29,877 nt of DNA from a virus. This document shows, in pieces, positions 3,220 to 29,877 of this stretch. Numbering within the stretch: position 1 is the stretch's first letter; each line of letters opens with the position of its first letter. A program made the position numbers and the translations under genes. Under the pieces are notes generated by a model that did no database searches, was not told where the DNA came from, and saw nothing but the letters and a program-made list of their open reading frames with translations. Location: the IMG/VR virus record IMGVR_UViG_3300018412_000035, positions 1-29,877 of that record. One strand, written 5' to 3'.

Positions 3220-3248
3220 CATCTGTGAAGCCTACTGTGAGGTTTGAA

Positions 3249-4016
3249 ATGAGCAATATCGATGAGCTGAAATTGCTTCAAAAGCAATCTTTGGCAGCCG
3301 CGAGACTCAGCGGAGAAAAACACTACCGTGGTTATGTTCCGTGTAAGCATGGGCATGTTTCTGACAGGCTGGTATCAACCCAGCAATGCTGCAAGTGCCT
3401 CGAATTAAGAAAGCGTGGCATGCGTAAAGCAGATGGGGTTCCCCAGTCGAAATCATCAAGAGTGAAGAAAAATACAGCCCTCAACCTGGGGAAAACACAC
3501 TATTTCACAGGCGTGGCATGCAAGCGTGGCCACATCGCCACCCGACTTGTGTCGACGAGGCAATGTACTGAATGCCTATCCTTGCGGGATCGTAAAGATG
3601 CTCCGCAGATATTAAGTGAGGCGGCGAAAAACAGGCTGAACGCAGCCAGACGTAGTCGAGTTGGTCGGGCCAAGAGCAGGGCGTACTACGGCAATGTTTT
3701 AAAGCATGACCCTTGCTATAAGCTGCGCCGCAAGGCCTATGACGAAATCAATAATGCTCTCACCTGGAATAGCGGAAAGGTGAAAATGGCGATTGGCTAC
3801 ACCTCTGACGAACTGCGCGAGCGTATACAGTCTCAATTCCAGCCCGGAATGAAATGGAACAATAGGGGCGAATGGGAGATTGACCACCGTAAGCCCATAT
3901 CAGCCTTTATCGCTGAAGGGGTGACCGATCTGATGGTCATTAATGCGCTGGATAATCTCCAGCCCCTCTGGAAAGAGGAAAATGCCATCAAGGGCAGCAA
4001 ATACATACCAGCTTAA
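3249..4016 (+). CDS. HNH homing-type endonuclease with two Cys/His zinc-binding repeats
   Basis: The 255-residue protein is a probable DNA endonuclease of the free-standing phage HNH type. The C-terminus carries WEIDHRKPISAF (Asp212-His213), then INALDNLQPLWKEENAIKG with Asn236 and Asn245, an HNH finger typical of phage nucleases. The N-terminus has two near-copies of a module: residues about 21-53 (Cys32, His36, Cys47/48, Cys50) and about 80-112 (Cys91, His95, Cys106, Cys109), sharing the core RLVST.QC..CL; these look like zinc-binding DNA-recognition fingers. The start chosen is ATG 3249, which has GTGAGG six bases upstream; GTG 3225 is possible but has no clear ribosome binding site. It sits between intact MuF and protease genes, with its own leader and terminator, as expected for a mobile insertion. 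Confidence 0.82.
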   Translation: MSNIDELKLLQKQSLAAARLSGEKHYRGYVPCKHGHVSDRLVSTQQCCKCLELRKRGMRKADGVPQSKSSRVKKNTALNLGKTHYFTGVACKRGHIATRLVSTRQCTECLSLRDRKDAPQILSEAAKNRLNAARRSRVGRAKSRAYYGNVLKHDPCYKLRRKAYDEINNALTWNSGKVKMAIGYTSDELRERIQSQFQPGMKWNNRGEWEIDHRKPISAFIAEGVTDLMVINALDNLQPLWKEENAIKGSKYIPA

Positions 4017-17811: not shown

Positions 17812-18203
17812 CACAGAGCGAATTTATCGGGCTTGTTAATGGCAAGCCCTGGGCTAACCGCGCCTGCACCTTTGATGAGTTGGATTGTTGGGGACTCGTG
17901 GTGTTGTATTACCGGCATGTTCTGGGTCTGGAGCTCCACCACGTCGCCGGCTATGAATCTGGCTTAGATTTCATCACCTGCTACGAAGAGGAGTTCGACC
18001 ATTGGCGCCGGGTTCCTGTGCCGGTTTCCGGCTGCCTTGCGGTGTTCTATTACGGCAATCAGCCGGCGCACGTCGGCGTGATGATTAATCCGGGGAAATG
18101 CCTGCACTCACGCGGCGAGTTCGGTTTTGTCCGCACGGACAGCGCAGTCATCCTTCAGAAAATTTATAACAAAGTGGAGTATCTGGTGCATGGTTCGATA
18201 TGA
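17808..18203 (+). CDS. NlpC/P60-like tail peptidase, lambda K position
   Basis: The 131-residue protein has the NlpC/P60 cysteine peptidase layout: FDELDCWGLVVLYY with the catalytic Cys27 at the start of a helix, PAHVGVMI with His88 on a strand, and CLHS with His100 as possible third residue. In lambda, protein K joins a JAB metallopeptidase domain to NlpC; here only the NlpC part is present. The protein may cut peptidoglycan during DNA entry or process a tail protein. ATG 17808 overlaps the L-like stop. Its own 3' end overlaps the J-like gene by 14 bases, linking it to the ubiquitin-like domain described there. Confidence 0.87.
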   Translation: MTQSEFIGLVNGKPWANRACTFDELDCWGLVVLYYRHVLGLELHHVAGYESGLDFITCYEEEFDHWRRVPVPVSGCLAVFYYGNQPAHVGVMINPGKCLHSRGEFGFVRTDSAVILQKIYNKVEYLVHGSI

Positions 18204-20673
18204 GCTCCAGCGCCTGCCTGGCGCACCTAAGCAGCGCGGGACCACTGAAGCCGGTACGACTCTGATAACGCTTCTCGACTCGCTGAGGCTGCACAATGAC
18301 GTCGTGGTTAAGCTCAACGGTCGCAAGCTGGCGGATGACTTCGATCTTGGCTATCGGCTGCGCGCTGGCGACGTCATTGCGATATTTGACCAGCCACAGG
18401 GCGGCGGCCTGATTAAGACGCTACTTAACCCTATTGAGCACCTGAATCCGATCCGGTTCACCAAGAAGGTGCTGGCGGGAATCACCGGGCAACAGACTGC
18501 ATCATCACCCTCTATTTCAACTGGCGAGTCTCCGAACAACGACGCAACAGGGCAAACTAACCGGGCACGGCTCTACAAGGGGCGTCCGAATATTTACGGT
18601 CAGTGCCGCGTCTTTCCGGACCTGATTCAGCAGGCGCTGTTTGAGTTTATCGACAACAACAAATACATCACCGAATGGTTTGAGGTCGGGTATGGGAAAT
18701 ACACCATATCCTCTGTTCGCTACTCTGAATCGAACCTTGGCAGCCTGGCCGGCGCAAGTTATGAGACGTTCGACCCTGGCGTGACGATCGGGACTATCGA
18801 TGTCGGGTATCAGTTTGATGATGTCGATAACGAAGAGGTGCCGGGCCTGAACGAGAGCGAGGACTTCCCGGCACAGACGGCGACGACTACAGCGCCGACG
18901 GCGCTGGTGATAGAGAGCAACCAGCTCAAGGCAACGGTGCTCTCTAACGATGACAACTTCACATACTTCGCTGCGCTGGCCGTTCCGCACCCGGTGACGT
19001 TCGTTATCAATGCCACCTGGAACGCCGGCGGCAGCCCGGTAACCCGTAACGTGACCGGCAGCGGGAATATCGTTTATTCGGAAAGCTTCATCGGTACGGA
19101 CATTCTCTCCTATACGACGTTCTATCTCGGCGATATGACGGGGGAGATCACCACGCTGCCAGCTGACGCAACCATCAACCTGACGTTGTTCACTCTGAAC
19201 GACCAGACGCCGCTGGTGATTGGTCCGTCGGTTTCACCATTGGTGTCTTCGCAGGTATGGGTGCACGTAATGGTGCAGCTCGGCGCAACGGCGGGGACGT
19301 CACGCTATCGGATACGGTTCTGGAAAGTTGACGACAGCAACAACCAGATACCGGGCACTTCCGAGCAGTACGATTATTTCTTCGATAACGATTTTCAGGT
19401 GACTACGCGGTATTTTCGTACCTCGCACAAATACACGCCGGCCGCCGGCGCGGGGCGTTACGCGGTGACGATTGAGCGCCTCGATAACAGCAATGACGGC
19501 AACGTCGTAACGCTAATGGCTATCCACGCGGTGAATGTGCGCGAAAACGTGGTTTACCCTGACGACACTATCGCCAAAGTCACCATTAAGGGGCCGAACA
19601 ACAGCAACAGTAACCGCGAGCAGAAATACAACATGCTCGCTCAGCGTCACACTATCAGCTACGACCGCGTGACCGGCCTGATTGATTACACGCTGCGCCC
19701 AAGCCGCTCGTTTGCCGACGCCGCACTGCATGAATGGATAGTCATCGGCAGGCAGGACGCATCGAGCATCGATATCGCTACGCTGTACGCGATCGCCGAT
19801 TCGATAACAGTCCCTGAGCTCTCGTACTTTGATTACACCTTCTCGGATGAAAAGTTGTCCCTCGGCGAGCGTATCAAAACCATCTGCAATGTGGCCCGCG
19901 TCGACGGGAACAACATCGGTGATGTGCTGACGTTCTGGCGCGATGAGAAAGTCGCGAATCCGGATGCAGTTTTCGCGCGCTCAAACATGTTCTGGGACGA
20001 GTATAAAGTTTCCTGGCAGATGTCACTGCCCGGCGGTTACGACGGCGTCACGGTAGATTATGTCGACCCGCTCACCAATAAGAAGGCCTATATCTACCTG
20101 CAGATTGACCAGAGCGGAATTGTCGAGGTTGGGGACGCAACCATCAACGCGCTCCAGATCAGCCTGGATGGCTCCCGCAATAAGGCGCAGGCGGAGGACA
20201 GGGCGTGGCTTGAGGCGCGCCGCATTATGCTCTCGCGCGTCGGTATGACAGTTAAAGTCCTGGACTCAACGCAGGTTATCCGCGGCGCTGTCGTGCAATG
20301 CCCGGACATGTACGACAACAAGCAGCAGAACGGATATATCACTGCCCGCAGCGGGGATATATTCAGCACCTCTGAGCGTATCGATTTCACTTTCGGCGAT
20401 ATGTGGGTTGTGATGACGGATAGCCTCGGGAATTACCGCGGCCGCTGGCGCGCATACCCCGTAACCGGCAAGCCTAAAGCATTTCAGGCTGCAGCTGACG
20501 CTTTCGACCTGAACATTTACGACAGAACGACGGTGCAGAACGCCAGTCGCTACTTCATCGCAACCAGCACAGAACTTAACTCCACTATCTGGCGGGTCGA
20601 AACAGCCAAACCCAATGGCGACGACACCCAGACATTAACCCTCTCTGAATATTCAGACTCGATTTATCCGTAA
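18190..20673 (+). CDS. Tail tip / host specificity protein (J-like) with N-terminal ThiS-like domain
   Basis: The 827-residue protein starts at ATG 18190 with GGAG ten bases upstream; longer upstream frame lies inside the NlpC gene and lacks support. Residues 1-73 look like a beta-grasp ThiS/MoaD/ubiquitin-like domain: strand, helix (TTLITLLDSLRLHNDVVV), NGRKL, then LRAGDVIAIFDQPQGGG, close to the closing DGD...GG of ThiS. Lambda encodes a comparable domain as separate protein I. The remainder matches J-like tip proteins (Phage-tail_3 type): GRPNIYGQCRVFPDL, TEWFEVGYGKY, and a C-terminal half with LGERIKTICNVARVDG and AWLEARRIMLSRVGM. Tip proteins of this kind form the tail end and hold the spike. 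No separate I gene is seen. Confidence 0.88.
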   Translation: MVRYELQRLPGAPKQRGTTEAGTTLITLLDSLRLHNDVVVKLNGRKLADDFDLGYRLRAGDVIAIFDQPQGGGLIKTLLNPIEHLNPIRFTKKVLAGITGQQTASSPSISTGESPNNDATGQTNRARLYKGRPNIYGQCRVFPDLIQQALFEFIDNNKYITEWFEVGYGKYTISSVRYSESNLGSLAGASYETFDPGVTIGTIDVGYQFDDVDNEEVPGLNESEDFPAQTATTTAPTALVIESNQLKATVLSNDDNFTYFAALAVPHPVTFVINATWNAGGSPVTRNVTGSGNIVYSESFIGTDILSYTTFYLGDMTGEITTLPADATINLTLFTLNDQTPLVIGPSVSPLVSSQVWVHVMVQLGATAGTSRYRIRFWKVDDSNNQIPGTSEQYDYFFDNDFQVTTRYFRTSHKYTPAAGAGRYAVTIERLDNSNDGNVVTLMAIHAVNVRENVVYPDDTIAKVTIKGPNNSNSNREQKYNMLAQRHTISYDRVTGLIDYTLRPSRSFADAALHEWIVIGRQDASSIDIATLYAIADSITVPELSYFDYTFSDEKLSLGERIKTICNVARVDGNNIGDVLTFWRDEKVANPDAVFARSNMFWDEYKVSWQMSLPGGYDGVTVDYVDPLTNKKAYIYLQIDQSGIVEVGDATINALQISLDGSRNKAQAEDRAWLEARRIMLSRVGMTVKVLDSTQVIRGAVVQCPDMYDNKQQNGYITARSGDIFSTSERIDFTFGDMWVVMTDSLGNYRGRWRAYPVTGKPKAFQAAADAFDLNIYDRTTVQNASRYFIATSTELNSTIWRVETAKPNGDDTQTLTLSEYSDSIYP

Positions 20674-20759
20674 CGCACAGCAGTAATAATTAACCTTCGC
20701 GCACACCATTAGATTAGTTTCTGAGGGTTTCGTGCGCCATATATAGGGCGACATGCACA

Positions 20760-21446
20760 ATGGCAGAAGTTCCACTCCCAACCCCGACTAAGGTCCCGGT
20801 ACCCAGCACCGATATTCGTAATGCTGTATTTGCCGGCGCAAAGCTGGACGAAGAGGTTACTGGTACTGGCGATTTCTATACTGATCGCCTTGGTGTAAAA
20901 CGCCTGACGAACACTGGTAGAAATAATCAGTTCAATGCGGCGCAGCTGGATAGGTCTAATCGGTTTGAGCAATTCCTTCTGTCCTCCGGCTACGTTTTTC
21001 TAGGCGACTATGAGGACGGTCCATTCCTGTTCAGCGCACGCAATCAGTATATTCGTTATGACAATCAGTATTATCGCCTGAATGCTGCTACTGATGTCGG
21101 TTTTATCACTACCGGAACGACAGCGGCCAGCTTCGCAAACGACGTTACTCACTTTGCTCTGATGGATGGGGACACGCTTCGCCAAAACCTGGGTTCAGGC
21201 GACGGAATAAAATGGATTGGCGGGCTGGGGTATACAACCCCTGAAAAATACCTGGCCAGGGGGGATGGGGTAACAGACGACACGGCAGCATTGCAGCTTG
21301 CTATATTTGAAGCAAAGATGTCGGGGCGGGAAGTTCTTCTTAGCTCCACGTACCTCATCTCTGAAGGTTTTAAACTTGATTCGTCAGTCGCAATCAGAGG
21401 CACAGGGAAGAAGTCGGGATTTGTAACAAAAGACAGCATTACGTAA
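20760..21446 (+). CDS. Tailspike N-terminal part, truncated by in-frame TAA
   Basis: The 228-residue product begins MAEVPLPTPT, the conserved virion-anchoring start of many enterobacterial siphovirus tailspikes, and runs to a TAA at 21444-21446. Residues 1-140 form the anchor (ending DGDTLRQNLGSGDG) and residues about 155-228 the beginning of a pectate-lyase-like beta-helix (ARGDGVTDDTAALQLAIFEA, the usual DG.tDDT.A.Q.Ai motif). The same frame stays open after the stop to 22772 and continues the beta-helix, so this is an interrupted gene. The crossover site 21178-21203 lies exactly at the anchor/beta-helix junction, making the anchor common to both spike versions. The upstream 86 bases contain a GCGCAC/GTGCGC inverted repeat but no convincing promoter. 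Confidence 0.85.
   Translation: MAEVPLPTPTKVPVPSTDIRNAVFAGAKLDEEVTGTGDFYTDRLGVKRLTNTGRNNQFNAAQLDRSNRFEQFLLSSGYVFLGDYEDGPFLFSARNQYIRYDNQYYRLNAATDVGFITTGTTAASFANDVTHFALMDGDTLRQNLGSGDGIKWIGGLGYTTPEKYLARGDGVTDDTAALQLAIFEAKMSGREVLLSSTYLISEGFKLDSSVAIRGTGKKSGFVTKDSIT
21178..21203 (+). repeat. Left invertase crossover site (dix-like)
   Basis: The 26-bp site has half-sites TTCGCCAAAACC and GGTTCAGGCGAC around a central TG. The halves form an imperfect dyad, the usual form of Hin/Gin/Cin sites. It matches the right site, read on the other strand, at most positions and sits inside the spike coding region at codons for LRQNLGSG. Confidence 0.85.
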
Positions 21447-22772
21447 CAGAGAATACTGTTTCACATTACGGCAGATAACGTGACGCTGGAGAACTTCTCT
21501 GTACTGACCTCTGCTGATGGATTTGGTGCTGTCGGTAGCGTTGGCTGCTATGTTATCCGTGTGGTAGATAACGTTGAGCGCACCAGAATATGCGGACTGA
21601 ATATTGACGGCCGTCACTATGGCGCGATGGGGTTCTGCACAGGCATATCAATTTCCTGGTCGAACCATGGTTTTTATCAGAACAACAATATTCAGAATTG
21701 TTCTGTAGGTATTCATGGCGGCGGAAGTTTCAACGTCATTGATGGCAATATCTGTGATAACCATTTTGTCGACGACCCGGAAAACTTCACGAACGCATGG
21801 GACAGCACGAGTATGTACTGGGACGGCTTCATGTTCGAAGGTCTTAAGTACAGCGCTATCACCAATAATACCGCGACGAATAATGGGCAGTCCGGGATTT
21901 ATTTTGGTGGTGGCGGGAGTTCAGTTTCCTGTTACAACATAATCTCCGGAAACATTGCAAACTGGAATTTTAACCACGGCATCGATAATGGTGTCAGTGG
22001 GACTCAGTCCGCTACAAATGACGTGTACGGGAACACCATAAACGGCAACATATGTAAAAACAACAGATATAATGGAATATGGCTCGGCACGGTGCATGAT
22101 ATTGTTGTCAATTCAAACATCGTTGTGATAGACGAAGAGCACAAAGCTAAGTTTAATTCAACTGGCGACAGTTCCGGGATTGGGCTCAGGCTGAACACAA
22201 CAAAGAACTGCGTGGTTTCTGATAATGATGTTTTCGTTACCGCCAACGAGTTCAGCAGTATCTATTTCCGTGGTGTCGGTAACGTTCTTGGTGATAACAG
22301 AATCAGAGGCAAGGATATTATTGTCGAAAACCTGATAACGAATAACTCAGCCAAAGGGCTAACAGGCACATTCAAACCGACAATTGCGGTCGGCAGTGGT
22401 GTCACACTGGACAGCACCGCAACGCGAGGAACGTACATAATCAACAATAATAAGATTGTGTACGACCTGGACCTGAACATAACAACGGCATCCGCGACAG
22501 GGCCGCTGCAACTCTCGGGATTTCCGTTCCTGGGCTCGGGTACGATTTATCAATACCTCGGGCAATGTCAGTTTACCTCTGGTATGAAGACCGGGTTCTA
22601 TCAGGGAAATATAGGCGTGAACGTTTACGCTAATAACAGTGTAGTGACAATCGCCGCGCTGGTCACGGGTGTATCGACTGATATTGGTACCTATTTAGGA
22701 AACACAGTCAGAATGCGTATCAAGCTGGAAATAATCATGAATGCCGCCGATTTCGAAGGCACATTTAACTAA
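21447..22772 (+). pseudogene. Tailspike beta-helix remainder, separated by premature stop
   Basis: This part continues in the same frame as the upstream piece, reading QRILFHITADNVTLENFSVL directly after TAA. It has repeated parallel beta-helix rungs: NNNIQNCSVGIHGGGS, SAITNNTATNNGQSGIYFGG, GNTINGNICKNNRYNGIWLG, VNSNIVV and later strands, typical of NosD/pectate-lyase-like spikes that bind or cut capsular polysaccharide or O-antigen. The full gene would encode 670 residues. Translation could restart at GTG 21480, but no ribosome binding site is seen, so the domain is probably not attached to the virion. A single C-to-T change (CAA to TAA) would explain the stop; a sequencing error or deliberate readthrough are alternatives. 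It is followed by a small gene at 22782. Confidence 0.8.
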
Positions 22773-22781
22773 GGAGTGAAT

Positions 22782-22922
22782 ATGTCTGAAGAAGTTAAAT
22801 TAATGACCGATGAAGCATTGAAATCGCTCATTGAGTCTCGCGAATCAGAACCCGAACCACCGGAAAAGAACACAGTTTCAATTCCCCCTTCAGCTTTTAA
22901 TGGTGAGTTTGTCCCTGACTGA
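22782..22922 (+). CDS. Small acidic protein downstream of + strand spike
   Basis: A 46-residue frame starts at ATG 22782 with an excellent AAGGAG seven bases upstream that overlaps the spike stop. It reads MSEEVKLMTDEALKSLIESR, then a Glu/Pro-rich stretch and SAFNGEFVPD. No family is recognised. Its place just after a spike gene, inside the invertible segment, suggests a spike-associated factor such as an assembly chaperone; the other cassette also carries one small gene in the equivalent place. A hairpin follows at 22928. The short length limits certainty, but the ribosome binding site is strong. Confidence 0.62.
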   Translation: MSEEVKLMTDEALKSLIESRESEPEPPEKNTVSIPPSAFNGEFVPD

Positions 22923-22927
22923 AATAT

Positions 22928-22945
22928 CCCGCCAGCAATGGCGGG
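22928..22945. terminator. Hairpin between convergent spike cassettes
   Basis: CCCGCCA 22928-22934 pairs perfectly with TGGCGGG 22939-22945 around GCAA. It lies between the two convergent small genes at the middle of the invertible segment and could stop transcripts from both sides, although T-runs on either side are weak. Confidence 0.5.
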
Positions 22946-22956
22946 CACCTTTAGTG

Positions 22957-23151
22957 TTAAGCCTCATCAACATCAGAATCAGCCAGCCCGAACCATTCAC
23001 AGCCCGTCTGGTTAATCTCACCTCCGGAGATATCCCCCGTCATTTTGTAGTTAACGCCGTCTTCCTGTAGAACTGGCGCTTCAGTAACGGTAAACAGTGA
23101 GCCATCAGGCATCTGCAATACATCGTCAATGCTGATTTCGGTAAATTTCAT
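22957..23151 (-). CDS. Small acidic protein downstream of - strand spike
   Basis: The 64-residue frame starts at ATG 23151, with GGGGGAG just upstream, nine bases after the end of the opposing-strand spike cassette. It reads MKFTEISIDDVLQMPDGSLF, then TVTEAPVLQEDGVNYKMTGD and a Cys/Trp-containing acidic end. It seems beta-rich and is unlike the 46-residue protein of the other cassette. I do not recognise the family. It would be expressed together with its spike only after inversion, so a spike-specific partner is plausible. Confidence 0.65.
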   Translation of the reverse strand: MKFTEISIDDVLQMPDGSLFTVTEAPVLQEDGVNYKMTGDISGGEINQTGCEWFGLADSDVDEA

Positions 23152-23160
23152 AACTCCCCC

Positions 23161-24900
23161 TTACATGAGTGCGCTGACGCCGGTGGCGTAAACCGTAATA
23201 GCTACGGCGGTATAGTTGGTAATGGTCAGGACGCCAGCATTCTGTGAAAGATGAATGAGACCATCGCCTGAGGTTCCGGCAGTGACTGAGAATGTCCCGG
23301 TTGGGTCAGCCACCTTGGATATTGTTCCGGTTGAAGCGTCCACAAAGAGCAGCGCAGCGGCATAGCCTGAGCTGATAACTGCCCGAATCGCTATTATGTG
23401 CGCCCCGCGAGCCGTCATAGTGGAAGAGGCCCCGCTGGAGATGGTCGTTGCGCCTTTTGATGCCACACCGCCGATACCAAAACCTGATGTGTCTCGACTC
23501 GCAGGCGTATATGTCTGGTACCAGCCGTAAACCGGAGCACCGAAGGTACCACCGTGGACTATGCGGTTATCATAAACGAACGGGCGGCAGGCTTCATTTT
23601 CCAGACGAATGGCATAGTTACGGGCACCATACAATTTGTTGTGCTGTATGCTGGCGTCGATTGCCAGAGCGCTTACGCGGATAACAGATGCCGTGTCGTC
23701 CACTGAACCCATTGACTGGAGCGTGCAGTGCTCTACCGAGCAGTTAAGCCCGTTAACGTAAACGTGCGGGTCTGTGGTCAGGGCCGCTGTTCGCCGCGAA
23801 GTGACGCGGGTCATGGTGCAGTCCCCCTCCATTATGGCAAGAATTGTTCCACACTCATCCAGTGTGCCGCCATCCCAGTCCCAGTCAGAACCGGATATAA
23901 TGCGAGACGCAAAACTGGCGTCAACATCCCTCAGCAGTAGAACGCCTTTTGAAGAGGCATACTGAAAATACCAGCCATGGCGAGAGGCATTTTCCGGACT
24001 GTAGATGCTGGGCCCAAGAAATTTAACACCTTTGTTCGCTGACTCAGGCCTGGCCGGGTCCTCAACCATATAAAACATAGGTATGTTTGATTTGGACCAA
24101 GTGAGTTCGGTGCCTGTAAAAGTTACGGCATTGGCACCTTCAATCGTGCAGGGTACGGTAGAAGTGATCCCCTCAATTTTTGTGCCGCTGCCAAAAAAGA
24201 TATGGCGTGACGCATTTTTAATTGTCAGGTTTTTAGTGCAGTTCTCAATATGAAGACCTTCAATCTTCAGCGCATTCGAACCGTCATCACTTGTTGTCTC
24301 TCCGGGACCAATATAGAGGCCGCTGGACTCCCCGTCAGTGAGATAATCCGACGAGCACTCCATTATCCGGACATCCATAAAAACACCATCCCAGTTCTGA
24401 TCCATTTTAATGCCATAGCCTGTGAGGCGATACATGGTGATGTCTTTGATAGTGGCGTAAGAGCAGTAGGACAGGTCAATGCCTGAACCACTAAAAGGTG
24501 AGTCAGCGGTTTGTTCCTGAAAGTCGCCAATAAACCCGCCACCTGAAATTGCCGGGGCAATTAGTCGCGCGCCGTTTACCCGGTTAACATAATAATCGCT
24601 GGTACCTTTAGAGTAGAATGCAAAAGTGCCAGGGTCAGGAATGATTCTCGTTGCTTTAGGGATGTGGTACTCAACGCCCGATATTAATGGCAATGAGCAC
24701 TGATACACCCCATTACCAAACCAGATATCAAAGAATTTTGTTTCGCCATAATTATAAACAGAATTATCCCTGCCAAGAATTGACCTCAGCACAGATAAAA
24801 TCGCCTCTGTTGACGACGTCTCCCCGGTATTATCGACACCCGGAATAGCATCAACATGCAGGTAGGAGATGTAGTTGTGTACTGAGCCCCCCTTTTTCAT
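23161..24900 (-). CDS. Silent alternative tailspike beta-helix cassette (lacks anchor and start)
   Basis: The 579 residues from ATG 24900 form a complete beta-helix spike domain without a virion anchor. The frame is in fact open further upstream to 24963, through the crossover site, so ATG 24900 is probably an ordinary internal Met (ASLVFMKKGGSV) and not a start: it has no ribosome binding site. Features are VDAIPGVDNTGETSSTEAI, close to the usual spike DG.tDDT.A motif region, a capping IWFGNGVYQCSLPL strand, many rungs (IKDITMYRLTGYGIKM, IEGLHIENCTKNLTIKNAS) and a C-terminal beta-rich GASSTMTARGAH...TVYATGVSALM end. After inversion it would replace the + strand beta-helix in frame. No stop or frameshift interrupts it, in contrast to the expressed copy. 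Confidence 0.85.
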   Translation of the reverse strand: MKKGGSVHNYISYLHVDAIPGVDNTGETSSTEAILSVLRSILGRDNSVYNYGETKFFDIWFGNGVYQCSLPLISGVEYHIPKATRIIPDPGTFAFYSKGTSDYYVNRVNGARLIAPAISGGGFIGDFQEQTADSPFSGSGIDLSYCSYATIKDITMYRLTGYGIKMDQNWDGVFMDVRIMECSSDYLTDGESSGLYIGPGETTSDDGSNALKIEGLHIENCTKNLTIKNASRHIFFGSGTKIEGITSTVPCTIEGANAVTFTGTELTWSKSNIPMFYMVEDPARPESANKGVKFLGPSIYSPENASRHGWYFQYASSKGVLLLRDVDASFASRIISGSDWDWDGGTLDECGTILAIMEGDCTMTRVTSRRTAALTTDPHVYVNGLNCSVEHCTLQSMGSVDDTASVIRVSALAIDASIQHNKLYGARNYAIRLENEACRPFVYDNRIVHGGTFGAPVYGWYQTYTPASRDTSGFGIGGVASKGATTISSGASSTMTARGAHIIAIRAVISSGYAAALLFVDASTGTISKVADPTGTFSVTAGTSGDGLIHLSQNAGVLTITNYTAVAITVYATGVSALM

Positions 24901-24924
24901 AAAAACCAGAGAGGCTCCAGGCAG

Positions 24925-24950
24925 TTCGCTTGAACCCAGGTTTACGCGAA
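24925..24950 (-). repeat. Right invertase crossover site (dix-like)
   Basis: Read on the - strand, the site has half-sites TTCGCGTAAACC and GGTTCAAGCGAA around a central TG; 10 of 12 positions are dyad-symmetric. It lies at the open 5' end of the silent spike cassette and 44 bases before the invertase start. Confidence 0.85.
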
Positions 24951-24993
24951 CAATCCCGGCAATTTACAATCAGCTATTTCAAAGGGTTGCATA

Positions 24994-25545
24994 ATGCTGA
25001 TTGGCTACGCGCGGGTGTCTACCGGCGATCAAAACCTCGATTTACAGAAAAACGCGCTGGTTCGCGCAGAATGTGAGCTAATTTTCGAAGACACCGCCAG
25101 CGGGGAAAATGCGAAGCGTCCCGGATTAAGGAAAGCTATTCGCCGTCTTCGACCTGGTGATTCGCTGGTGGTCTGGAAACTGGATCGCCTCGGTCGCAGC
25201 GTACGCGACCTCATTACGTTGGTATCTGAACTGCAGGAGCGGGGAATTCATTTTCGCAGCCTGACCGACAGCATTGATACAAGCACGCCAGCAGGCCGCT
25301 TCTTCTTCCATGTCATGAGTGCCCTGGCGGAAATGGAGAGGGAATTGATAGTGGAGCGCACCCGCGCCGGTTTAGCCGCTGCAAGGGAGCATGGGCGCAT
25401 CGGTGGCCGCCGCCGGATAATGACCACCGAAGTTGTGGAACTCTGCCGGCGCATGCTGGAAAACGGAGCTACACGCCAGCAGGTGGCCGACGTGATCGGC
25501 GTAGGGGTTAAGACGGTTTACAAATATTTGCCAGTAACGGGATGA
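24994..25545 (+). CDS. Serine DNA invertase (Gin/Hin/Pin family)
   Basis: The 183-residue protein is a small serine recombinase: YARVSTGDQN with the nucleophile Ser9 and Arg7, LVVWKLDRLGRSVRDL with Arg65 and Arg68 of the active site, RFFFHVMSALAEMERELIVERTRAGL as the long dimerisation helix, and a C-terminal helix-turn-helix (NGATRQQVADVIGVGVKTVYKYL). Length fits Gin (193) and Hin (190). ATG 24994 has only a weak GGG upstream, suggesting low expression, as is known for other invertases. It lies 44 bases outside the right crossover site. These enzymes bend the DNA into a synapse with Fis bound to an enhancer; I could not identify an enhancer by eye. Its likely substrate is the tailspike segment. 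Confidence 0.93.
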   Translation: MLIGYARVSTGDQNLDLQKNALVRAECELIFEDTASGENAKRPGLRKAIRRLRPGDSLVVWKLDRLGRSVRDLITLVSELQERGIHFRSLTDSIDTSTPAGRFFFHVMSALAEMERELIVERTRAGLAAAREHGRIGGRRRIMTTEVVELCRRMLENGATRQQVADVIGVGVKTVYKYLPVTG

Positions 25546-25564
25546 GCTTTAAGCCTAATGGCTA

Positions 25565-25672
25565 TCAAAACTTTTCGTGATTATTCGATATGCCTTCCCA
25601 CAGTTGTAAAAGCCCAAACATCATGAGTCCTGAGAAAGTAAAGAGCGTTGCGGCAACAAGTAAAGTAGTCAT
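25565..25672 (-). CDS. Possible small membrane peptide
   Basis: A 35-residue frame on the - strand starts at ATG 25672 and reads MTTLLVAATLFTFSGLMMFG, then LLQLWEGISNNHEKF. It has one uninterrupted hydrophobic segment (residues about 3-24) and a polar end, the build of single-pass small membrane proteins. No good ribosome binding site is seen (GGCTCTTA only), which lowers confidence. It is convergent with the invertase gene and about 20 bases from its stop. It may be a real small protein of the attachment region or chance. Confidence 0.4.
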   Translation of the reverse strand: MTTLLVAATLFTFSGLMMFGLLQLWEGISNNHEKF

Positions 25673-25680
25673 TTAAGAGC

Positions 25681-25975
25681 CTGTGTTTTTATTGATTACA
25701 TATTAGACACCACGACATCTAAATAGTTGCTGAGCTTTACAAAACAATGAAGTATTGCTACCTGGCCTAAGGTGCCCCACCAGGTAGCCGTATGCAAGAG
25801 CTACCGGGCTGGGCTGGTGCTATTCGAGCAGAATAGACACCGTGGGTGATTGTACAGACCGGTCAGCATACAACCCAGCCATCTGCCGATTCCCGAGCGT
25901 CTTTCAGAGTGATCTATACAAATTCATCGGTGGATTCTTTTTCGTCAACGCGAAAGGATATGGGCTGGGACATCA
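25681..25975. other. Intergenic region without convincing gene
   Basis: Apart from the inverted-repeat cluster at 25757-25880, I see no reading frame with a ribosome binding site, no tRNA and no terminator with a T-run here. The stretch probably belongs to the attachment region. Confidence 0.5.
25757..25880. other. Cluster of strong inverted repeats between invertase and integrase
   Basis: GCTACCTGG 25757-25765 and CCAGGTAGC 25780-25788 form a perfect 9-bp dyad. CTATTC 25820-25825 pairs with GAATAG 25831-25836, extended by GTG/CAC after a one-base bulge. GGCTGGG 25807-25813 is complementary to CCCAGCC 25874-25880 and could enclose the second hairpin. No T-run follows. The region could be a structured RNA, a protein-binding array or part of an attachment site; I do not recognise it. 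Confidence 0.4.
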
Positions 25976-26205
25976 ATGGGGCATGGATGGGGCATAAAAT
26001 GAGGGCGAACGAGGGCGAACTTAGTAACCATGTATCCATCAAGGCCATAACCTGTTGTTTATGAATGCGCTCTTGGGCGACCTTGGATGTTAATAGAAAC
26101 TACGCTCTTATATTATCAATATGTAGCATGTTGATATGTAACGTAATGATATATCAATATATTATCCATTCAATGCAATGTCATGGGGCAGGGATGGGGC
26201 AAAAT
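25976..26205. other. Putative attP region with paired ATGGGGCA repeats
   Basis: ATGGGGCA occurs as a pair 11 bases apart at 25976 and 25987 and again as a pair 11 bases apart at 26183 and 26194, all in the same direction. The second pair overlaps the 3' end of the integrase gene. Such paired direct repeats on both sides of an AT-rich core resemble arm-type integrase binding sites. A perfect match to the IHF consensus lies at 26152-26164, and the core-like stretch 26100-26160 contains dyads such as ATCAATATG/CATGTTGAT. A 10-bp tandem duplication of GAGGGCGAAC lies at 26001-26020. The crossover core itself cannot be chosen without the host junctions. Confidence 0.5.
26152..26164 (+). promoter_or_regulatory. 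Probable IHF binding site
   Basis: TATCAATATATTA matches the consensus WATCAANNNNTTR at every fixed position and overlaps the integrase stop codon, as expected for a bend site next to an attP core. Confidence 0.5.
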
Positions 26206-27451
26206 CAGCTAGTTTCTGGTTCAAAAGCGCCACCTGCTCCGTGTTTTTTTCCGCCATCCATTTTCCATAAACCTTGTAAACCATCTGCGCATCAGCGTGA
26301 CCCATTTGCGTTGCGATAAAGTTTGGATTTGCGCCAGCTGACAATGACCAGCAGGCGTAAGTATGTCTCGTCTGATAAGCGTTACGGTGTCGAAGGCCGG
26401 CACGCTTAATGTGAGCATCCCAAATTTTCTTTATCGAACCGACCGCATAATGGTCTCCTGCAAGGTAGTTTCTCCCTGTTAGTCGTGGATCAAACACAAA
26501 CGTGCATTCGTGTTTTTCTTTGCGTCCGTACTCCCGTAGGTTTACTTCTACTTCATGCTGTTTACCAAACCTTGTCATCTCTGCCTGGCTGCGGAGTGCT
26601 TCTATTGCTGGTTCAATCAGGAAAACAACCCGGTTCGTTCCAGCTTTAGTTTTTGGCATGGTAAATTCATTTGTGGGCGTAAAGTTCCTCCTGATCATCA
26701 TCGTTCCCGCTTTCAGGTCGATATCCTCCCAGGCCAGTGAAACCAGCTCCCCATGACGAATTCCTGTGTATACTGCAAGGGCCCAGATGTTCCTGATCTG
26801 CGTATGCTTACAACTATCAAGCAGTCGAAGAAACTCATCACTCGAAAGAGGGTCGGGGTCTGGACGACTTCTTGTTAAAGCTGATATACCGTTAAACGGG
26901 TTTTCTGCTGTGTACCCACTCGCTACAGCAAAACTGAACATTCCTGAAATAGTGGTCATGTAGTTGTTAACAGTGGGTACCGTTCTTCCTTTTGATGGCT
27001 TATGTCCTTTTTTAGGCACCTTCCACCCGGTCAAAAGTTCCTTTCTTATAAGCAGCAAATCCTCTCTGTTAACTGAGGAAATGAACCTGTCCCCGCCGAT
27101 CCGTGGCACCATGTTTTTTACAATGGACTCATAGCCAACAAACCCGTTGCTGCTCATCTCAATCCGCTTGAGCTCAAGCCATTTCTCAGCAATTTCCTTT
27201 ACTGTTATTTCCTTTTTCTCAACTCCAAATTTTTTCAGGTTAAGAGATTCAGGAAACTGGCTGGCATAGTTGAAAGTACCCATTTTGATTGCGAAACATA
27301 CTGAGCTTCTTAGCTCGCCAGCCGTCTTTCTGTTTTTTGGTGTATCAGGAACGCCAAGGTTTTCCCTGACCCTGACGCCCTGATAGATGAACCATATGCG
27401 AAGCGATCCGCCATGATTCTCAACGCCAGTTGGATATGACGATTTGGCCAT
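26162..27451 (-). CDS. Tyrosine integrase
   Basis: The 429-residue protein integrates and, with Xis, excises the phage genome. The N-terminus (about 1-80) resembles the DUF3596 arm-binding domain (GSLRIWFIYQGVRVRENLG). A core-binding SAM-like domain follows (about 85-195). The catalytic domain shows TGIRHGEL with Arg232, PKTKAGTNR with the beta-hairpin Lys, YQTRHTYA with Arg362, MGHADAQ with His385 and VYGKW with nucleophile Tyr395. The first His of the usual HxxR box is Tyr here, which is common in this branch. ATG 27451 has GGAGGAAG six bases upstream. The gene ends in the putative attP region, so transcription runs towards the attachment site, as in lambda. Confidence 0.95.
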   Translation of the reverse strand: MAKSSYPTGVENHGGSLRIWFIYQGVRVRENLGVPDTPKNRKTAGELRSSVCFAIKMGTFNYASQFPESLNLKKFGVEKKEITVKEIAEKWLELKRIEMSSNGFVGYESIVKNMVPRIGGDRFISSVNREDLLLIRKELLTGWKVPKKGHKPSKGRTVPTVNNYMTTISGMFSFAVASGYTAENPFNGISALTRSRPDPDPLSSDEFLRLLDSCKHTQIRNIWALAVYTGIRHGELVSLAWEDIDLKAGTMMIRRNFTPTNEFTMPKTKAGTNRVVFLIEPAIEALRSQAEMTRFGKQHEVEVNLREYGRKEKHECTFVFDPRLTGRNYLAGDHYAVGSIKKIWDAHIKRAGLRHRNAYQTRHTYACWSLSAGANPNFIATQMGHADAQMVYKVYGKWMAEKNTEQVALLNQKLADFAPSLPHDIALNG

Positions 27452-27493
27452 TCTTCCTCCCCAGCGCCCAAGAGCATGTTAAGAATATCGCTT

Positions 27494-27742
27494 TCAGCAT
27501 GAATGAGCACCTGGCTGTTTCGATAACTGGCGCTCTATCCACTGATTTATCGCTTCCAGGTTATACATGCATTGGCTGTTCGGGTTTGGATCACCATCAG
27601 GTGATACATGCATATATTCTCGGCCAACGAACCAGGAGTTCTTTCTGGCTCGTTCAATTGTTCCAGAACGAAGACCGGTAATTTCTGTGAGTTTCTTTTC
27701 TGTGACCCACTTGTTAGGCACCAGTTGAATTACGTCGCTCAT
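27494..27742 (-). CDS. Excisionase (Xis, DUF1233-like)
   Basis: The 82-residue protein starts at ATG 27742 with AGGAGAG upstream. It begins MSDVIQLVPNKWVTEKKLTE and continues ITGLRSGTIERARKNSWFVG, the winged-helix DNA-binding pattern of the DUF1233 excisionase family, and ends with YNLEAINQWIERQL. Excisionase binds near attachment sites and directs integrase to excise the prophage. It lies 42 bases upstream of the integrase gene in the same direction, the usual xis-int order. A longer frame exists upstream but overlaps the DUF4222 gene and has no good start signal. Confidence 0.88.
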   Translation of the reverse strand: MSDVIQLVPNKWVTEKKLTEITGLRSGTIERARKNSWFVGREYMHVSPDGDPNPNSQCMYNLEAINQWIERQLSKQPGAHSC

Positions 27743-27755
27743 ATACTCTCCTGAA

Positions 27756-27995
27756 TCAGGCCGCGCGCTGGGCGCGCAACTTCTTAATGTGCTCGCTCTG
27801 CTCCAGTTCGGCGCGTATCTGGTGCGCTTCTTCAAGGGTGAGCGGTTCGAAATCGTTATTAAATCGGTCGATGCTTGCCGTGTTGATCCGACCCTGGCGC
27901 CAGTAACGAACCGTCTTGTCATCACAGCTATGAATCAGCACCGGCCATCCGTGGCTGTCGGCGTAAACCTGTCCGCGCTGTATCAGTTTGAACAT
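27756..27995 (-). CDS. DUF4222 family protein
   Basis: The 79-residue product starts at ATG 27995; GGAGG lies five bases upstream, favouring this over GTG 27998. It reads MFKLIQRGQVYADSHGWPV, then HSCDDKTVRYWRQGRI, the SH3-like pattern of DUF4222, small proteins of lambdoid early regions without known function. A basic, helical C-terminus follows (SEHIKKLRAQRAA). The start overlaps the stop of the upstream zinc-finger gene (TGATG), so translation is coupled. Confidence 0.85.
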   Translation of the reverse strand: MFKLIQRGQVYADSHGWPVLIHSCDDKTVRYWRQGRINTASIDRFNNDFEPLTLEEAHQIRAELEQSEHIKKLRAQRAA

Positions 27996-28216
27996 CACGG
28001 CCTCCGGTGCTTACCGCGTAATTCCTCTTCCTCCTGACAGTCAGCACAGCGCTGACATCCAGCCACCAGTTCCCGACGCCGTGCCGGTATAGGGTCCCCG
28101 CAATCCACACAGTGAGTGGCCGATACCGCGTTATGGTTGATGCGCATGTTCTGGATGGTTTGTTCAAGTCGACGTTCTGCCAGCTCGTTGGCCTGATCGA
28201 TGATTTCTGCGCTCAT
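27995..28216 (-). CDS. DksA/TraR-type zinc finger protein
   Basis: The 73-residue protein has an N-terminal helix (IIDQANELAERRLEQTIQNM) and a zinc finger CVDCG...CQRCADCQ (four Cys at about residues 36, 39, 54, 57), matching small phage members of the DksA/TraR family, which may bind RNA polymerase in its secondary channel. The coiled-coil tip of DksA is missing and the Asp-Ala pair is not evident, so effect on transcription is uncertain. The start at ATG 28216 overlaps the DUF1382 stop (ATGA). Confidence 0.88.
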   Translation of the reverse strand: MSAEIIDQANELAERRLEQTIQNMRINHNAVSATHCVDCGDPIPARRRELVAGCQRCADCQEEEELRGKHRRP

Positions 28217-28404
28217 GCTGCACCGCCTTCGCTTTTTTCCGCTTCAACCGCCATCTGCTCAAGCTTTCGTGAAAGCTCGGCAGACAGTGCCTGGAACTCT
28301 TCCTCTGTCGCTACCGGGATCGGCACAAAACGGATACCGATATGAGCGAGGCCATGTGCGGCCTCAAGGCATTTCCTTAAATCAACGGGAGAGGCTCTGT
28401 TCAT
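28213..28404 (-). CDS. DUF1382 family protein
   Basis: The 63-residue product reads MNRASPVDLRKCLEAAHGLA, then HIGIRFVPIPVATEEEFQAL and a helical end, a close fit to DUF1382, a short conserved protein of lambdoid delayed-early regions with unknown function. It overlaps both neighbours by four bases (ATGA at each end), evidence for translational coupling within one operon. Confidence 0.88.
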   Translation of the reverse strand: MNRASPVDLRKCLEAAHGLAHIGIRFVPIPVATEEEFQALSAELSRKLEQMAVEAEKSEGGAA

Positions 28405-29087
28405 ACTGCACCGCCTTCAACGCGTTTGAACTCGATAACCCAAACCCAGGGGTTCGCCTGCCAATTTTCGGCGCCGTAGATGGATTCCCACAGGCTTCTG
28501 AATGAGGATCGATACAGTTCATTCATTTCGACGAAGTAGGGCATGTCCTCTGACCAAAACTGGAAAAACTCATCGCTGGCCGCGTAATTCCTTGCGACTA
28601 CTGTCTGGTCCCACACCTCGGTATGAACTCCCTCGCGTTGTGCGTCCTCTTCGCTGATAGCGTTCAGCCGCTCAACCCGCACATCGGTGATTTCCAGCAG
28701 AATGCGGCTGGCCCAGCGCGGCATGTGCAGCGATGGCGTCCACTTCTCAGGCGTTGCCGGTTTATTGCAGACAGCTACGGGTACACGGTGGGTTTGCTCC
28801 GTCCACGAATTTCTCTCGCTGGCTTTGTATACCAGGGTGGCGACGTCGGTAGCCCGGCTATGGACACGAAATGTCTCGCGTACCCAAATTCGATCGCCTG
28901 GTTTACCAAATGCGCTGTTCAGATAGTTGCCTGCCGACAGCTCCCCGGCCAGTTCATTGCCAGCCAACTCGCACCCAAGGTTTTTATCGAATAACGGAAA
29001 CTTTATCGGGCGCCGTGTCTGCGTCTTCCGGCCATCAAGCAGCGCACAGACCATCTTCGAGTTAAAAATCATTCCGCGCTCAATCAT
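28401..29087 (-). CDS. Early-region protein, ASCH/'morphogenetic protein'-like
   Basis: The 228-residue protein starts at ATG 29087 with GAGG upstream. The N-terminus, MIERGMIFNSKMVCALLDGR followed by KTQTRRPI, is shared by phage proteins often labelled morphogenetic protein and related to the ASCH (PUA-like) fold, which is expected to bind RNA or nucleotides. Other marks are GDRIWVRETF, HMPRWASRILLEITDVRVERL and a C-terminal WQANPWVWVIEFKRV; these order as in ASCH domains (G.....WVRE.f, then a strand-rich end). The label morphogenetic is not supported by context here, since the gene lies in the early operon. Function remains unknown. Confidence 0.8.
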   Translation of the reverse strand: MIERGMIFNSKMVCALLDGRKTQTRRPIKFPLFDKNLGCELAGNELAGELSAGNYLNSAFGKPGDRIWVRETFRVHSRATDVATLVYKASERNSWTEQTHRVPVAVCNKPATPEKWTPSLHMPRWASRILLEITDVRVERLNAISEEDAQREGVHTEVWDQTVVARNYAASDEFFQFWSEDMPYFVEMNELYRSSFRSLWESIYGAENWQANPWVWVIEFKRVEGGAV

Positions 29088-29424
29088 TCCAGGCCTCCAG
29101 TTCGTTATCGATCTCTTCGTCGATTTCTTCGGTGGTTGCTTCTTCGTTCAGAAAGTCACGAGCTTCTTTGATGTATTGCTCTCGGCGTTCGTGGTACCAG
29201 GCTGAGAATTCAGGACTCCAGCCATTTGGTGAGCCGTCATAGTCAACTTTGGCGTTACGTTCAGCCATGCTCTCAACCATGCTGTAAGCAGTAGTGAGCG
29301 CCGCTTCGCGGATATAACCGCGCAGGTCGCGCTTGCGCCAGACCATGCTAAATTTCGAGTCGCAGCGGCCTTTAAATTCAACTTCCCAACGGCGAATACA
29401 GCGTGCGTTTAGTGATTTGCTCAT
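29080..29424 (-). CDS. Hypothetical early protein
   Basis: The 114-residue product starts at ATG 29424, chosen because GGAG lies ten bases upstream and the stop of the preceding gene overlaps it as ATGA; a longer frame to 29547 would only add sequence antisense or out of frame to the neighbour. The product begins MSKSLNARCIRRWEVEFKGR, has a helical middle (AALTTAYSMVESMAERNAKV) and a very acidic end (EEATTEEIDEEIDNELE). No family is recognised. It overlaps the downstream gene by eight bases. Confidence 0.75.
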   Translation of the reverse strand: MSKSLNARCIRRWEVEFKGRCDSKFSMVWRKRDLRGYIREAALTTAYSMVESMAERNAKVDYDGSPNGWSPEFSAWYHERREQYIKEARDFLNEEATTEEIDEEIDNELEAWND

Positions 29425-29642
29425 GATTCCACTCCATACCGCCCATTCATGCGGCCAATAACACTGACAAATTTCACCAGGCTGACACCCATCGGCCGGA
29501 CCTTCTCGTAGTGCTTGCGAAGGATGGGGGGGCATACAGCGTTCCACTTCGGTTTAGGCTTTGCGCTCATCGCTTTGGTTAGCTCTTCTGCGCAGCGACG
29601 AGCCTGCGCGCGGAGGATGTTTTCCTGTTCTTCTGGCGTCAT
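29421..29642 (-). CDS. Hypothetical early protein
   Basis: The 73-residue frame starts at ATG 29642, overlapping the upstream stop by four bases. It begins MTPEEQENILRAQARRCAEE, a charged helix, followed by a basic PKPKWNAVCPPILRKHYEKV segment and a GVSLVKFVSVIGRMNGRYG end. I do not recognise the family. Coupling on both sides supports expression. Confidence 0.72.
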   Translation of the reverse strand: MTPEEQENILRAQARRCAEELTKAMSAKPKPKWNAVCPPILRKHYEKVRPMGVSLVKFVSVIGRMNGRYGVES

Positions 29643-29877
29643 GCTGCCTCCCGCTTCTTATTGAGGTGGGGTGCATTCGAAAGGAAAACGGCCTTTGCAA
29701 ATCCAAGAGGAGTTGCACTGCGAATGTTGGCGCGCTCGTCGCCGGGCGGACATTCGTGAATTCGGTTGTCCGGATACCAGTCAGTCACCAATCCGGCAAA
29801 GGACGTTCCGGATATGGCCTCGATCGCCTTTTTCTTCGGCACCATGCGGCCGCAGGCCATCTTCACGGCGTCGATAG
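29639..29877 (-). CDS. Hypothetical early protein, 5' end outside window
   Basis: The frame is open to the right edge of the window, so the start is probably outside; an internal GTG at 29866 has no ribosome binding site. The visible 79 residues read IDAVKMACGRMVPKKKAIEA, then GLVTDWYPDNRIHECPPGDE and a basic end (SNAPHLNKKREAA). No domain is recognised. The stop overlaps the next gene by four bases (ATGA), placing it at the upstream end of the visible operon. Confidence 0.65.
   Translation of the reverse strand, partial: IDAVKMACGRMVPKKKAIEAISGTSFAGLVTDWYPDNRIHECPPGDERANIRSATPLGFAKAVFLSNAPHLNKKREAA

Follow-up and report, generated by a model that had tools for sequence, protein, structure and literature searches.

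A probable two-state DNA inversion switch for beta-helix tailspike domains in a temperate Klebsiella-type siphovirus

This study concerns the tailspike region of IMG/VR virus record IMGVR_UViG_3300018412_000035, the whole of which (29,877 bases) was analysed and is referred to below as the window. Between the anchor of a tailspike and the gene for a serine DNA invertase lies a 3.7-kb segment that is bounded by two inverted 26-bp sites and carries one spike cassette on each strand. The open reading frame (ORF) of the spike starts at 20760, right after the gene for a J/TipJ-like tail-tip protein. The features of this region are the following.

20760..21191, plus strand: fixed N-terminal spike anchor, 144 codons through the TG core (phrog_17635 tail fiber, 1.2e-15), with relatives at 61 loci in IMG/VR and one in GTDB
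21178-21203, plus strand: left inversion site, with anchor-side half TTCGCCAAAACC, core TG and cassette-side half GGTTCAGGCGAC
21192..22772, plus strand: cassette A, currently joined to the anchor, an interrupted beta-helix spike domain with a relative of 97% amino-acid identity in locus L068
23161..24936, minus strand: cassette B, a silent and intact beta-helix spike domain (PF13229 Beta_helix, 5.2e-07; phrog_22037 tail spike, 1.4e-14)
24925-24950, minus strand: right inversion site, with invertase-side half TTCGCGTAAACC, core TG and cassette-side half GGTTCAAGCGAA
24994..25545, plus strand: serine DNA invertase of Gin/Hin type (PF00239 Resolvase, 1.2e-48; PF02796 HTH_7, 2.7e-08; phrog_125 DNA invertase, 1.7e-84)
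25012..25083, plus strand: probable recombinational enhancer, lying within the invertase gene at nt 19-90 and 51/72 identical to the P1 cin enhancer

The original prediction, made from the letters of the window alone, held that two inverted sites with the same central TG bracket the two spike domains, and both sites are present as described. They agree at 22 of 26 positions and are the only full sites in the window. The best inverted 26-mer pairs in 20 Markov-resampled copies of 20400-26200 reach 18-20 matches, so that the pair taken alone is just moderately above chance, and it is the comparison with relatives, below, that establishes the sites as real. The spike ORF crosses the left site, which places that site at the junction of anchor and beta-helix, and the right site lies at the open 5' end of the silent cassette, both as had been proposed; a TAA stands in the frame of this cassette four codons before the right site, and the cassette hence has no start outside that site. 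Inside the silent frame an ATG is present at 24900. The predicted length of the joined product also holds, the segment lengths of 431 and 1777 bases giving 2208, a whole number of codons, with both cassettes in one codon phase at the site, while the distance from the right site to the invertase start is 43 bases, not the 44 first given.

A spike domain does lie on each strand, as the prediction had it, but the active one is cut by an in-frame TAA at 21444-21446 that had been overlooked. This stop ends the joined spike after 228 residues, and the frame reopens from there to 22772; the intact spike domain in the window record is the silent one only, so inversion would be needed for a full-length spike. 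The AlphaFold model of domain B has a mean pLDDT of 71.9 and was matched by VIA-align to the Sf6 tailspike (Z 27.4, rmsd 2.7 over 338 residues) and to the Klebsiella K1 capsule lyase (Z 24.4, rmsd 2.7 over 366 residues), with Z reaching 28.9 for residues about 27-484; Foldseek TM-scores are low (TMq 0.19-0.46 among the 50 matches listed). Klebsiella phage May has a tail spike with ~30% sequence identity to domain B over 99% of the domain, starting at residue 4, that is, at the junction. Domain A, modelled through its 97%-identical relative in L068 (pLDDT 68.0), has the Dettilon tailspike as its best match (Foldseek E 2.2e-22). These models, which are of moderate confidence, point to a right-handed beta-helix fold for both exchanged domains. 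From such a fold the domains may be expected to bind or cleave surface polysaccharide, and A and B may recognise different capsules or O-antigens.

Taken together, the best explanation of this region, in which we have high confidence, is a two-state DNA inversion switch of a temperate Klebsiella-type siphovirus. The serine invertase would pair the two inverted sites, cut within the central TG and invert the segment between them, the outer half-sites on the anchor and invertase sides staying in place and the inner half-sites moving with the cassettes. In one state the anchor would be in frame with domain A and in the other with domain B, the domain parked at the right site being without a start and closed by the TAA beyond the site. 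The product would be a single spike anchor with two alternative polysaccharide-binding, and probably depolymerising, domains.

To place the window among its relatives, two sets of loci were collected (given here by their L numbers where needed). A scan with the 146-residue anchor returned the 61 IMG/VR loci and the single GTDB locus noted above. A scan with the invertase returned at least 596 confirmed relatives, of which the best 80 were kept, so that the resulting loci represent close relatives and do not sample the family at random. Once the window, L068 and four named-phage loci (L064-L067) are added, 91 loci have an invertase match over 160 residues. The best site-like 26-mer within 300 nt 5' of the invertase starts exactly at -69 in 90/91 of them, window included, the lone exception (L067) being a sequence cut at that point. 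A left site is also present in 85/91, and the cores of left and right site are equal in 85/85, although equality was not imposed. These 85 modules, again counting the window, exclude L067 and five loci without a left site in the stretch examined (L086, L105, L111, L124 and L141). In all of them the sites are inverted, head to head, around an asymmetric 2-bp core, as in Gin/Hin-type systems. At the same anchor junction, 43 of the 62 anchor loci have a left-site match of at least 22/26.

The modules fall into two classes by their core, TG (37, among them the window) and CT (48). In TG modules the spike ORF runs through the left site, at least 132 of its codons lying ahead of that site, and the codon phase is the same at both sites in 37/37; the right outer half is TTCGCGTAAACC in 37/37, and in the same number a TAA closes the silent frame four codons past the site. 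A first ATG (within 60 codons) that has a Shine-Dalgarno-like motif occurs in the silent frame of 1/37. The logic of this class, as read from its frames, is one of domain exchange. In the CT class a long ORF has a start codon 20-23 nt inward from the site, at the left site in 47/48 modules and at the right site in 48/48, preceded in the commonest flanks by a TTTGGAGCAAAAA stretch, a layout in which two complete genes swap places. The invertases of both classes form one close family, on whose tree, taken before its bootstrap had converged, the class label changes at least three times along well supported branches.

Both orientations of the segment are found among these relatives. In an all-against-all comparison of the 85 segments, the inversion spans upwards of 80% of the segment in 16 pairs (12 TG, 4 CT), and nine pairs share the same orientation; counted by hand from the list, the inverted pairs make up 11 independent groups (7 TG, 4 CT). 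The segment of 4822 bp in L077 and L079 is inverted at 99.92% identity between flanks of 99.9%, and the two contig names share the IMG number 2857980404; in L071 and L072, 4208 bp are inverted at 99.86%. Two plasmid records of Klebsiella michiganensis FDAARGOS_647 have flanks of 2873 and 7077 bp that are 100% identical and a 4180-bp segment that is inverted at 99.95%, with 2 mismatches. The original prediction had named a single orientation in all relatives as the outcome that would tell against it, and these three cases show both. Like the K. michiganensis records, L038 stands outside the 85-module set; it carries the segment of L050 inverted (3989 bp, 90.8%). Outer half-sites are unswapped, with 0 mismatches, in 12/12 of the inverted TG pairs, and the inner half-sites fit better when swapped in 6/12 (0 or 1 mismatch versus 2-6), which places the crossover inside the site. 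Relatives thus show the two orientations and the crossover within the site that belong to a Gin/Hin-type system.

For the cassettes of the window itself, the closest case is L068, in which domain A stands in the OFF position (97% amino-acid identity over 430 residues, 92% at the nucleotide level over 1768 bp) and has no stop at the position of the window's TAA. The junction there reads TTCGCGTAAACC-TG-GGTTCAGGCGAC, the window's inner half set on the invertase-side outer half, and the invertase is 96% identical. The prediction had also asked whether any relative carries the anchor fused to the silent domain, to which the answer is a distant one: in L056 an anchor of 82% identity over residues 58-146 is fused to a full-length 30% relative of domain B, while L068 shows the active domain silent.

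Several observations weigh against this interpretation. The window record displays one state only, and its active domain is broken. Inner half-sites in 6/12 of the inverted TG pairs are too alike to reveal a swap. The anchor of L068 is 41% like that of the window and its partner cassette is different, so that it presents the same cassette in the other state in a different phage. For domain B no relative closer than about 34% was found in IMG/VR, plasmids, phages and the loci already collected: the IMG/VR scan with the silent domain alone gave 2 stretches that fit a pattern and no relative, tblastn against plasmids gave no match, the phages gave 7 records at about 30%, and tblastn on the collected loci gave the distant relatives of 30-34%. 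Some sets of near-identical records are invariant, with seven of seven CT-type Escherichia coli prophage loci (L169-L175) in one orientation, as are L167 and L168 (99.8%) and BUCT708 and BUCT709 (100% over 14.6 kb). Since L169-L172 are 100% identical over 15.6 kb, and the other loci of this group at least 99.98%, the group comes close to one observation. The 12 regions added for this comparison came from the matches listed; the two others, L165 and L166, do not allow a comparison, cassettes being missing beside the L165 invertase. Finally, some of the inverted record pairs may reflect a choice made in assembly between states present in one culture, in which case both states would still exist.

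The two loci left out of that comparison, L165 (E. coli p10A) and L166 (p10B), come from two blood isolates with the same invertase; p10A has an IS26 copy and chromosomal genes where p10B has spike genes, suggesting an IS26-linked rearrangement at the switch. IS26 also adjoins the K. michiganensis modules (L152, NZ_CP044110; L153, NZ_CP044111), where a TG switch with a phage-type anchor lies beside conjugal transfer genes on plasmids typed as conjugative, with genes for a TraG N-terminal domain protein and a DsbA family protein as neighbours, apparently as a prophage fragment inside the plasmid. At L038:4190-9131 two anchors (58% and 31% identical to that of the window) face each other on opposite strands, and no invertase match was found in the stretch examined.

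The enzyme at the window locus is a serine recombinase of the Gin/Hin type, with a Resolvase family domain, HTH_7 and the catalytic serine (Ser9, found in 83/83 module invertases scored). Its best solved-structure matches are the DNA-invertases 4m6f and 3uj3 (E about 1e-70), which we take to be Gin of Mu. From its family it is predicted to catalyse inversion of the segment, and we infer that in the window phage it acts on its own two sites. The candidate enhancer occupies the same place in the gene as the annotated enhancer of P1 cin (nt 19-90). Across 83 of the 85 invertase genes (L076, with a stop, and one gene yielding fewer than 540 bases were left out), relative synonymous diversity is 0.33 at codons 7-30 versus 0.644 elsewhere, the lowest of 157 windows of codons, a value that 0/20000 codon permutations reach. 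Of the two Fis sites expected in such an enhancer one is clear, a Fis-like motif that matches 7/7 at nt 71 of P1 cin and of the window gene alike; the second is weak. The synonymous dip would fit a Fis-bound enhancer overlapping the invertase gene, and Fis may stimulate the window invertase.

Among the 74 TG-module cassettes, the 71 of at least 200 residues form 34 clusters at 40% identity, and 15 of these clusters have both ON and OFF members. Cassettes have also been re-paired, L109 joining cassettes from two clusters, L006/L016 and L074/L083, and the silent cassette of L099 belongs to the Salmonella P22 tailspike family (PF09251, 2.8e-55). A Pfam family of beta-helix or depolymerase type is matched at E<=0.01 by 10/34 cluster representatives, so that the beta-helix is established for only part of the cassettes, namely those of the window and several more; most PHROG matches among the 25 families listed carry the name tail fibre or tail spike. 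Single linkage puts all 37 TG anchors in one group. In the 20 loci with relatives of the window anchor, the last 120 anchor residues align in 190/190 pairs (median 93.75%), against 16/190 for the cassette N-termini just past the site. We tentatively suggest, with slightly more doubt than belief, that the inversion site is also a general docking point, at which the invertase and a site coding for the near-constant LR(Q/S)NLGS junction allow many enteric siphoviruses to capture, re-pair and silently store unrelated beta-helix domains, one of them of the Salmonella P22 tailspike family, a prophage thereby keeping a reversible second receptor specificity and trading it with other prophages. The invertase may move as well: L082 and L087 have the same cassettes inverted at 99.6%, with right flanks (invertase) 91.8% alike and invertases in different parts of the tree, from which the invertase gene itself seems to have been exchanged.

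Among other explanations, the one that fares best is that the switch was active in an ancestor and that the window module, with its broken spike, is now frozen and heading for loss, which we consider unlikely. The TAA in domain A would agree with it, as would the stop in the L076 invertase and the 5/37 TG modules with at least one cassette ORF below 450 codons. Decay is common round this anchor: an invertase match over 160 residues occurs in 5 of the 62 anchor loci and a C-terminal remnant in 9, while 15 have no invertase in at least 4.5 kb downstream and 33 have less downstream DNA, which indicates frequent loss of the switch with retention of a single spike. The window, however, has an unbroken invertase ORF with Ser9, two full sites and a domain B that is intact and in phase. 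As a separate observation, nine loci (L005, L010, L013, L014, L019, L021, L025, L027 and L058) resemble frozen switches, with an anchor, one cassette and a C-terminal invertase piece of about 22-107 residues, and look as though one deletion had taken the other cassette and the right site along with the 5' part of the invertase.

We regard as very improbable a second alternative, mosaicism by homologous recombination, in which the sites are a mere conserved linker coding for LR(Q/S)NLGS. The junction is indeed also a general module boundary, as the alignable anchors and unalignable cassette N-termini indicate, yet the sites are where the inversions stop, the outer halves staying in place and, in 6 pairs, the inner ones visibly swapped; the right site lies outside any spike gene at a constant distance from the invertase, and what separates the K. 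michiganensis records is the inversion plus 2 mismatches. Least probable of all is a switch for on-off control of an entire gene or promoter without a swap of protein domains, an arrangement seen in the sister CT class with its start codons inside the sites and at odds with the TG class, where the left site lies inside the spike ORF and the cassettes are in phase in 37/37. Shufflons employ Rci, a tyrosine recombinase, and multiple sites, and a shufflon was rejected on finding an adjoining recombinase of the serine type and two full sites only in the window; a promoter inverton was rejected on sites that fall within the spike reading frame, and a chance repeat on the one spacing in 90/91 loci. 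The observation behind the original prediction is confirmed, and its interpretation as a domain-exchanging inversion switch is supported as essentially right.

Gin-type serine invertase systems are known from Mu, e14 and the Salmonella flagellar switch (Hin), and in Mu the C-termini of the tail fibre are exchanged. The window module is like the Gin/Cin/Pin/Hin systems in combining a serine invertase with a pair of inverted sites that each have a 2-bp core, a swapped C-terminal, receptor-binding part and a probable enhancer inside the invertase gene. The P1 record likewise annotates exchange of the tail-fibre C-terminus and an enhancer within cin. Unlike P1 as annotated, and unlike Mu, where fibre C-termini are exchanged, the window class swaps whole right-handed beta-helix tailspike domains, mostly of 500-700 codons, behind a siphovirus anchor. 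The record of Escherichia phage LLS (PQ299149), which itself annotates IR-L/IR-R and a Fin invertase, has the same order of central tail fibre, tail fibre with an internal IR-L, opposite tail fibre and invertase. Its exchanged parts differ in carrying Phage_tail_C_2 and Peptidase_S74 and no beta-helix family in Pfam; a scan of LLS for sites of the window family found none, and no paper on it was found in the open-access literature searched. Klebsiella phage KPP5665-2 resembles the window in its invertase (89% identical) and 26-bp sites, the right one also at -69, but has a CT core and flips two complete genes. The strings 'invertase' and 'invers' are absent from its genome paper (PMC5658490). 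For carotovoricin Er and pantailocins, a review describes inversion of the fibre region beside an invertase that alters the killing spectrum (PMC12090994); these Erwinia/Pantoea tailocins differ from the window system in having fibres and no spikes. In four Proteobacteria species, a genome-wide survey of inversions reports such events within prophage regions, tail fibres above all (PMC5903667). A search confined to open-access papers found none combining 'DNA invertase' with 'tailspike' or describing a switch of beta-helix spike domains. Within that literature, exchange of beta-helix spike domains is a new variation on the tail-fibre inversion long known from Mu, P1 and carotovoricin.

The first 20.6 kb of the window have Klebsiella prophage records as best matches in the phage collection (Klebsiella phage 2 LV-2017, 64% covered, 84.5%). 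By megablast of window 18000-29800, 106/5426 E. coli complete genomes matched, and the 40 listed matches all lie at the right end (about 28000-29660). An invertase relative derived from L006 occurs in 54/5426 of these genomes, 22 with at least 80% of the query. The GTDB anchor locus is from Klebsiella grimontii, whose genome gave a 48-bp DNA match only; no invertase match was found in the stretch of this locus examined, and within the family of the K. grimontii genome an invertase match of E<=1e-60 occurs in 8/392 sampled genomes. The remaining features near the switch are listed here.

18127..20673, plus strand: J/TipJ-like protein of the central tail tip, encoded ahead of the switch (phrog_469 tail protein, E 2.9e-252)
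22782..22922, plus strand: 46-aa ORF behind cassette A, with no Pfam or PHROG family at E 0.1
22957..23151, minus strand: 64-aa ORF behind cassette B, known from the ORF list only

Among the head genes, a 263-aa ORF (window 3225-4016) has an end that resembles an HNH endonuclease, by eye alone.

The tropism of Klebsiella and other enteric phages for capsule and O-antigen is usually viewed as fixed, narrow and determined by the tailspike. As a correction to the original prediction, the switch is widespread and common among relatives, and with a reversible domain switch so widespread, a single genome sequence would display only half of a phage's possible specificity and host-range prediction from the annotated spike would overlook the silent domain. 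A clonal lysogen could release two kinds of virion. The records of one strain that hold both states offer a clean, testable system for studying how temperate phages face hosts that change their capsules.

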